Assembly: GCA_030146905.1 (NCBI GenBank)
Contig: JASLAV010000049.1
Coordinates: 1 to 13,840 of the forward strand
Direction of reading: 5' to 3'
Source of the DNA: Lentzea sp.
Lineage (GTDB): Bacteria; Actinomycetota; Actinomycetes; Mycobacteriales; Pseudonocardiaceae
DNA: 13,840 nucleotides
Shown here: in pieces, positions 1,987-2,909 of the stretch
Layout of the letters: every line of letters starts with the position of its first letter
How positions within the stretch are numbered: position 1 is the stretch's first letter
Notes under the pieces: model-generated
Database searches by the model: none
Told to the model about the DNA's origin: nothing
Seen by the model: the letters and a program-made list of their open reading frames with translations, nothing else
Translations under genes and position numbers: made by a program

Positions 1987-1989
<3 letters not shown>

Positions 1990-2002
1990 GGTCTAGACCA
2001 TA
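1987..2002. promoter_or_regulatory. Candidate DasR-responsive element (dre) at ptsI
   Basis: Positions 1988-2001 form a perfect 14-bp palindrome with core TGGTCTAGACCA (1989-2000). In Streptomyces the GntR-family regulator DasR binds 16-bp dre sites with the consensus A-S-TGGTCTAGACCA-S-T, and controls ptsI, ptsH, crr and nagE2 in response to glucosamine-6-phosphate. The 12-bp core is identical here; only the outermost bases differ. The palindrome overlaps the ATG of ptsI, so a bound regulator could block initiation at a near-leaderless promoter or stop read-through from rbsK. The match is seen in the sequence. The regulator itself is not in this window. Confidence 0.8.
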
Positions 2003-2036: not shown

Positions 2037-2909
2037 TTAAATCGGCGAGCCGACCTCGGCTGCGGTCGGGTAGGACGGCTGCGCGCCCGCCTTCGTGACG
2101 GACAGCGCGGCGACCTTCACCGCATAACGAGCAGCTTGGACGATGTCGTCACCGTCTGCCAACCGTGCGGACACCGCGCCGGCGAACGCGTCACCGGCAC
2201 CGGTCGTGTCGACGACCTCGGACACCTCGACCGCCGGAACCTCGACGACACCGGACTTCTCCACCACGGCGGCACCGCGCGAGCCGAGCGTGACGATCGC
2301 CGACGCGGGACCGAGGTCGAGCAGCTCGCGCCAGCCGGACGCGAGCTGCGCGGCCTCGTGCTCGTTCACGATCAGCACGGTCAGCTGCCGCAGGGTCTCC
2401 GCGGGCAGGTCGGCCACCGGCGACAGGTTCAGCACGGTGCGGACACCGGCCCGTGCGGCGACGTCGATGGCGTGGATCACCGTCTCCAGCGGCACTTCCA
2501 GCGAGCACGTCAGGACGCTCGTGCCGTCGAACGACAGACCGTCCACATCGGACTTCGACACGTCGGCGTTGGCACCGGGGGAGACGACGATCGAGTTCTC
2601 GCCGTCCGGCGTCACGGTGATGTACGCGATCCCCGTCGGCCGCGCGGAGGTCTTCACCAGCGAGGTGTCGACGCCGGACGACTCCAGCGACTCGCGCAGC
2701 AGCGAGCCGTACCCGTCACCACCGACGGCACCGACCAGCGCGACGGAGGCGCCGACGCGGGCGGCGGCGACGGCGGTGTTCGCGCCCTTGCCGCCGGGCA
2801 GCACGACGGTGTCACCGCCGAGCACGGTCTCCCCGCCGGCGGGCCGCCTGCCGACCTCGACCACGAGGTCGGCGTTGGCGGAACCGAGTACGAGCAGAGG
2901 CTTCGTCAC
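2037..2909 (-). CDS. rbsK: Ribokinase (PfkB family)
   Basis: The 290-residue enzyme phosphorylates D-ribose at O5 with ATP, feeding ribose 5-phosphate into the pentose phosphate pathway. The N-terminal sugar-binding signature is GSANADLVVEVGRRPAGGET, followed by LPGGKGANTAVAAARVGA (PfkB signature 1, about 38-54). The C-terminal signature VDTTGAGDAFAGAVSARLADG carries the catalytic base Asp240 and the anion hole GAGD. NEHEA near 182-186 is also typical. The segment just after it is shorter than in E. coli RbsK. The reading frame is open upstream to 3764, but the true start is GTG at 2909. That codon overlaps the rbsB stop in GTGA and begins exactly at the family N-terminus. There is no strong Shine-Dalgarno, which suits translational coupling to rbsB. 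The assignment to ribose rests on the operon context. Confidence 0.94.
   Translation of the reverse strand: MTKPLLVLGSANADLVVEVGRRPAGGETVLGGDTVVLPGGKGANTAVAAARVGASVALVGAVGGDGYGSLLRESLESSGVDTSLVKTSARPTGIAYITVTPDGENSIVVSPGANADVSKSDVDGLSFDGTSVLTCSLEVPLETVIHAIDVAARAGVRTVLNLSPVADLPAETLRQLTVLIVNEHEAAQLASGWRELLDLGPASAIVTLGSRGAAVVEKSGVVEVPAVEVSEVVDTTGAGDAFAGAVSARLADGDDIVQAARYAVKVAALSVTKAGAQPSYPTAAEVGSPI

Follow-up and report, generated by a model that had tools for sequence, protein, structure and literature searches.

The first bases of ptsI, the gene for enzyme I of the phosphotransferase system (PTS), coincide in the window (the whole stretch of 13,840 nucleotides that was analysed) with a palindrome resembling the DasR-responsive element (dre) of streptomycetes. 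This raises the question of whether the resemblance is accidental and, if not, what an operator would do on top of a start codon. In Lentzea and many of its relatives one 16-bp word appears to serve as promoter box, start codon and DasR operator at the same time.

The ptsI start and its palindrome

The 543-residue product of ptsI matches the solved structures of enzyme I and exceeds the cut-off of the NCBIfam model PTS_I_fam. The window is assigned to Lentzea because this product is 94% identical to its counterpart in L. jiangxiensis. The start codon is well supported, because an in-frame ATG upstream of it (2001-1999, minus strand) is closed by a TAG two codons later, and because in relatives the enzyme I start motif comes almost directly after the ATG (MLRLSGVGVS). 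The coordinates of the features are collected in Table 1. At its other end ptsI converges with a RidA-like gene, and an inverted repeat (gtcccgtgag ... ctcacgggat; 266-351) lies between the two, where it is perhaps a two-way terminator.

Table 1. Features at the ptsI start, in window coordinates
Feature	Position	Strand	Remarks
Perfect 14-bp palindrome, dre-like	1988-2001	none	ATGGTCTAGACCAT, equal to its own reverse complement
dre core, 12 bp	1989-2000		TGGTCTAGACCA, exact match within the palindrome
Conserved 16-mer	1987-2002	minus (2002 to 1987)	TATGGTCTAGACCATG, putative operator, -10 box and start codon together
TATGGT, a TANNNT hexamer (candidate -10 box)	1997-2002	minus	7 nt before the ATG
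Start codon of ptsI (ATG), with its A at 1989 as inferred transcription start	1987-1989	minus	
ptsI, PTS enzyme I, 543 aa	358-1989	minus	open reading frame and protein matches
rbsK-like ribokinase gene	2037-2909	minus	GTG start assigned by eye

The original prediction described a near-perfect dre, built as a perfect 14-bp palindrome with the streptomycete core and placed on the ATG itself rather than upstream of it. The palindrome and the core are present as described, and the last base of the core is the A of the ptsI ATG. The core is that of the 16-bp consensus given in the available text of PMC4398421. "Near-perfect" holds for the core but not for the two outer bases on each side: the coding strand reads TA..TG, whereas the consensus flanks in the same text are A(G/C) and (G/C)T, and the 16 bp as a whole are not self-complementary. 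This mismatch is not treated as defining for membership in the dre class, because several Streptomyces coelicolor sites recorded as bound, for example tatggtctagacctga, deviate at the outer bases too (PMC4398421, Table 1).

The core is the sole match in the window when up to two mismatches are allowed. By chance 0.20 such matches are expected per window, and at least one occurs in 38 of 200 shuffles. The window contains four perfect 14-bp palindromes compared with 2.1 in block shuffles, and palindromy alone is unremarkable at this scale.

Conservation of the site

The identical 16-mer, ending in the ptsI ATG, is found at 33 of 48 ptsI loci of named public genomes (22 Lentzea, nine Saccharothrix, one Amycolatopsis and one labelled Nocardia sp. 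NRRL S-836). An alignment of the window with these loci, 34 sequences in total, shows no variation in any of the 16 columns from -13 to +3, compared with one invariant column among the 67 from -80 to -14. No core with up to two mismatches is present between -400 and +40 at the ptsI loci of Saccharopolyspora (12 of 12) and Nocardiopsis (3 of 3).

Within the Pseudonocardiaceae, 179 of the 297 genomes drawn contain the 16-mer within one mismatch. A ptsI gene was found in 109 of 120 family genomes at a search threshold of E 1e-60, the other 11 giving no match. In 56 of these 109 genomes the best ptsI copy has an in-frame ATG whose A is the last base of the core (55 exact, one with one mismatch), namely at 54 of 94 loci anchored by tblastn and at two of 15 unanchored loci, which were scanned without regard to frame and then assigned a frame by hand. 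One copy per genome, the best, was examined; 13 genomes have two or three ptsI matches. At L245 and L246 the ptsI start reads TAGGGTCTCAAGACCATG; this palindrome has a wider centre and may be a shifted operator.

Across the class the exact 16-mer occurs in five of 394 genomes and lies at ptsI in L. jiangxiensis only, so that in this draw the arrangement with the 16-mer on the ptsI start was not seen outside the family. In the four other genomes (L296-L299) the frame that starts at the ATG of the 16-mer is just 1-32 codons long. On the opposite strand three of these four reach a gene 43-44 bp beyond the 16-mer, and the beginning of this gene resembles that of a glycerol kinase gene.

The exact core is weakly enriched over its backward control in seven Lentzea genomes (2 versus 0, 4 versus 1, 4 versus 2, 5 versus 4, 3 versus 2, 5 versus 1 and 4 versus 3). 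With one mismatch the core is rarer than the control in two Lentzea genomes (24 versus 31 and 30 versus 36) and commoner in two Saccharothrix and one Amycolatopsis (43 versus 21, 44 versus 11 and 36 versus 10). In L. jiangxiensis matches to WGGTCTAGACCW at one mismatch do not outnumber those to its control (61 versus 69). As proof of a regulon in Lentzea the genome-wide counts were rejected, being too weak against the backward control. What goes beyond chance is the position of the site and its conservation, not its palindromy or its genome-wide counts.

A probable leaderless promoter under the proposed operator

Leaderless genes are marked by the hexamer TANNNT, the first T of which lies about 12 bp upstream of the start codon (available text of PMC3160421), and TANNNT is also the -10 motif of Mycobacterium tuberculosis (available text of PMC3898074). 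By the same measure the distance at the window ptsI is 13; expressed as a gap it is 7 nt, within the 6-8 nt of leaderless spacing. Among 1146 candidate starts (several per open reading frame) in 387 kb of L. jiangxiensis sequence, 15 are preceded by TANNNT at a gap of 6 nt and 20 at a gap of 7 nt, a sharp peak over the average of 1.3 at spacings outside 5-9 nt. A Shine-Dalgarno sequence is absent at the normal distance, ATGGTCTAGACC occupying -12 to -1. Most Lentzea have a tract resembling GGAGGG or GAAGGG that ends 13 nt short of the ATG and might act as a distant Shine-Dalgarno sequence; some relatives with the site, L042 and L104 among them, lack it. The aligned upstream columns of the 34 sequences contain no conserved -35 box. 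Where the site departs from the dre consensus, at the outer TA and TG, its bases are exactly those required by the -10 box and the ATG.

Of 40 ptsI starts whose ATG does not carry the core, 20 are preceded by TANNNT at a gap of 6-10 nt and one by TANNNT at another spacing within 2-29 nt. The -10 box therefore persists where the operator is missing. A Shine-Dalgarno-like tract is present in 16 of the other 20 starts, and ptsI is therefore not leaderless everywhere. It appears that the leaderless ptsI promoter stands independently in part of the family and that the operator is superimposed on it. At L235, in a genome with DasR, the core lies instead 59 bp upstream of a ptsI gene led by a Shine-Dalgarno sequence. 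The near-leaderless promoter of the original prediction is well supported by the invariant 16-mer, its placement across the family and the TANNNT spacing.

DasR and further dre sites

The checks proposed with the original prediction, for a DasR orthologue and for further sites at nag and chitinase genes, were run on the relatives, and both the protein and the sites were found. The best PDB matches of the L. jiangxiensis orthologue are the DasR entries 9i0v and 4zs8 (E 6.7e-95). Its stretch SRTTVRQAL is identical to that of the solved DasR, and it keeps an RLR that aligns, by our own count, with the effector arginines 142/144 of PMC4918961 (available text). Each of the 56 family genomes that have the site encodes a DasR orthologue, with 72-100% identity to the query, and the site is present in none of the 16 ptsI genomes without a DasR match at E 1e-100 (Fisher p 2.5e-6, uncorrected for kinship and with genomes matched by hand; one of the 16 has just a 45% match and one was deduced as the single unlisted genome). 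The site is absent from the copy examined in 37 of the 93 ptsI genomes with DasR. One DasR-less genome retains a broken form, TATGGTCTCCGACCATG, in which the -10 box and the ATG are intact. The genome from which the window comes probably encodes DasR as well. L. jiangxiensis has a second DasR-like protein, 51% identical (L077, G001:C10:55493-56188), which might share the ptsI site. Similar second copies are seen in other family genomes.

The dasR gene of L. jiangxiensis is divergent from that of a sugar-binding protein (dasA), and the gap between them contains a one-mismatch dre, TGGTCTACACCA. Next come two open reading frames that look like permeases, a GH3 protein and a SIS protein resembling NagB-II, below the cut-off of that model; nagA, on the other strand, is above the cut-off of its own model. 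Other dre-like sites of this genome are found at nagA, upstream of a gene for an AraC-type regulator, on the start of a CutC-family gene and, in tandem, in front of a GH18/CBM2 chitinase gene (neighbours named from profile matches or by eye). The exact 16-mer lies on the start of a CutC-like gene in all six other Lentzea genomes searched, one product being confirmed by Pfam and the others by eye. Some of these genomes also have exact cores upstream of an LPMO_10/CBM_5_12 gene and of an AraC-type regulator. The gene context is that of a dre, with ptsI in the window and dasR/dasA, nagA, a GH18 chitinase and an LPMO in relatives. At ptsI and at the CutC-like gene the 16-mer is flanked by different bases, and the two sites therefore look independent.

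In L. jiangxiensis (L275:3325-4011 and L275:1968-3245) the CutC-family gene is followed by a gene for a sugar-binding protein, which has a one-mismatch dre of its own. CutC-family starts with the 16-mer or a one-base variant are also seen at L063, L094, L100, L102, L103, L187 and L130, and CutC may have an amino-sugar role under DasR. Inspected by eye, the dre of nagA (L276:10887-12140) overlaps a likely -10 box (CATAAT) and start point and precedes a Shine-Dalgarno sequence and a TTG start. Placing the operator on the -10 box may be a wider habit in Lentzea.

Proposed mechanism and alternatives

The conservation and placement of the site, the DasR orthologues and further dre of the relatives and the TANNNT spacing make it very probable that ptsI is leaderless and that an inducer-released DasR operator lies over its -10 box, start point and start codon. 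RNA polymerase would use TATGGT as the -10 box and begin transcription at, or within one base of, the A of the ATG. Of the two palindrome half-sites, one would provide most of the -10 box as ATGGT and the other the start codon as part of ACCATG. In the absence of phosphosugars derived from N-acetylglucosamine (GlcNAc), a DasR dimer would cover all three elements and exclude RNA polymerase. GlcN-6-P or GlcNAc-6-P would free DasR from the site, upon which enzyme I would be made and GlcNAc would enter via the PTS. We infer DasR binding, inducer release and the leaderless 5' end at ptsI, the release by GlcN-6-P because it is part of known DasR biology (available text of PMC4918961).

A different role is suggested by the gene order. 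The site could act as a roadblock to transcripts arriving from rbsK, as the original prediction also considered, with ptsI normally being read from the rbs operon upstream. The stop codon of the rbsK-like gene in the window (2037-2039) is 47 bp before the ptsI ATG by hand count, on the same strand; in the closest relative, L. jiangxiensis, rbsK ends about 100 bp upstream of ptsI, and an rbsK-like C-terminus lies within 300 bp upstream at 44 of 109 family ptsI loci. However, rbsK is close (91-179 bp) at five of 23 Lentzea-type loci, including that of L. jiangxiensis, and the site is identical at the other 18, where rbsK ends 1.1-2.9 kb away, as it is at L022 and L023, where rbsK was not found. 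The nearest called upstream open reading frame, within 150 bp, points away from ptsI at eight of the 33 site-bearing loci (frames were called by length and composition, and one overlapping frame at L028 was set aside as spurious), and the -10 box at leaderless spacing outlasts the site in half of the site-less ptsI starts. As the main function of DasR here a roadblock is thus quite unlikely. Because the site stays identical whatever the distance of rbsK or the direction of the upstream frame, the blocking of rbsK transcripts would be at most a by-product and not the conserved purpose of the site.

The binder might also be another regulator of the GntR/HutC type, such as the protein with about 51% identity to DasR, with DasR itself not the main one. 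There are 5-9 UTRA proteins in each of five genomes, and second DasR-like proteins occur in L. jiangxiensis and others; yet this motif is found between dasR and dasA and also precedes nagA and a chitinase gene, the site follows DasR in its distribution, and at E 1e-50 a single DasR-like match is present in 29 of the 56 genomes with the site, which leaves this alternative very unlikely. It is highly improbable that the palindrome is kept not as a DNA operator but as an RNA hairpin hiding the start codon in read-through transcripts. The two arms do pair around a CUAG loop over the AUG on RNA folding, and the fold of an 81-nt stretch is better than those of its shuffles (z -2.71), but coding sequence takes part in the pairing. 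A 41-nt fold, however, is no better than shuffles (z -0.75), the variant TACGGTCTAGATCATG is not compensatory, the hairpin loop is invariant as well, other genes have the motif upstream, at a distance from their start codons, and a leaderless mRNA would be without the 5' arm. A chance resemblance to dre is hardly conceivable: perfect 14-bp palindromes do arise by chance about twice per window, but chance is already refuted by the conservation of the site, and the word recurs at the starts of two unrelated genes. The DasR operator on a leaderless promoter is thus the preferred reading. A bolder extension of it, which is unlikely, would have the 16-bp word fixed independently at ptsI and at the CutC-like gene and ptsI gated twice: DasR would block initiation on the DNA and the palindrome would fold over the AUG in rbsK read-through RNA, so that only RNAs started at the ATG would be well translated.

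Relation to known systems

The crr-ptsI dre of S. coelicolor, tgtggtctagacctct, is bound in gel shift and ChIP-on-chip experiments (PMC4398421, Table 1). It resembles the Lentzea site in regulator family, target gene and a near-identical core, but is situated 130 bp upstream, according to the available text, whereas the Lentzea site covers the -10 box and the ATG. The other upstream dre of S. coelicolor primary metabolism given there are at -32 or further, with a few inside genes; elsewhere in the same table there are sites at -18 (marked downstream) and at -13 (cpkC). Leaderless promoters of Actinobacteria likewise have TANNNT near the start codon (available text of PMC3160421), but in Lentzea the hexamer and the start codon both fall within the palindrome of a putative repressor site. 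NagR/YvoA of Bacillus is also a GntR/HutC repressor of GlcNAc genes with dre-type operators (available text of PMC6141813 and PMC4918961); its operators belong to another phylum, and the likeness is drawn irrespective of operator positions. DasR has been studied in Saccharopolyspora erythraea, in a paper whose main text, as far as available, has no word beginning with "pts" (PMC11076491). The available text of open-licence papers yielded no account of a dre on the ptsI start codon or on a leaderless start. Control of enzyme I by DasR is known in kind from Streptomyces. The placement of the dre on the -10 box and ATG, and its conservation across much of the Pseudonocardiaceae, appear to be new.

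The Pseudonocardiaceae are a family rich in antibiotic producers. The site would extend the GlcNAc/DasR switch to PTS enzyme I in this family, and the sites at CutC-family starts suggest that DasR controls a CutC-like protein there as well. At ptsI the operator, promoter and start codon would overlap to an extreme degree, as leaderless transcription permits, and this overlap predicts exact 5' ends and the effects of point mutations.
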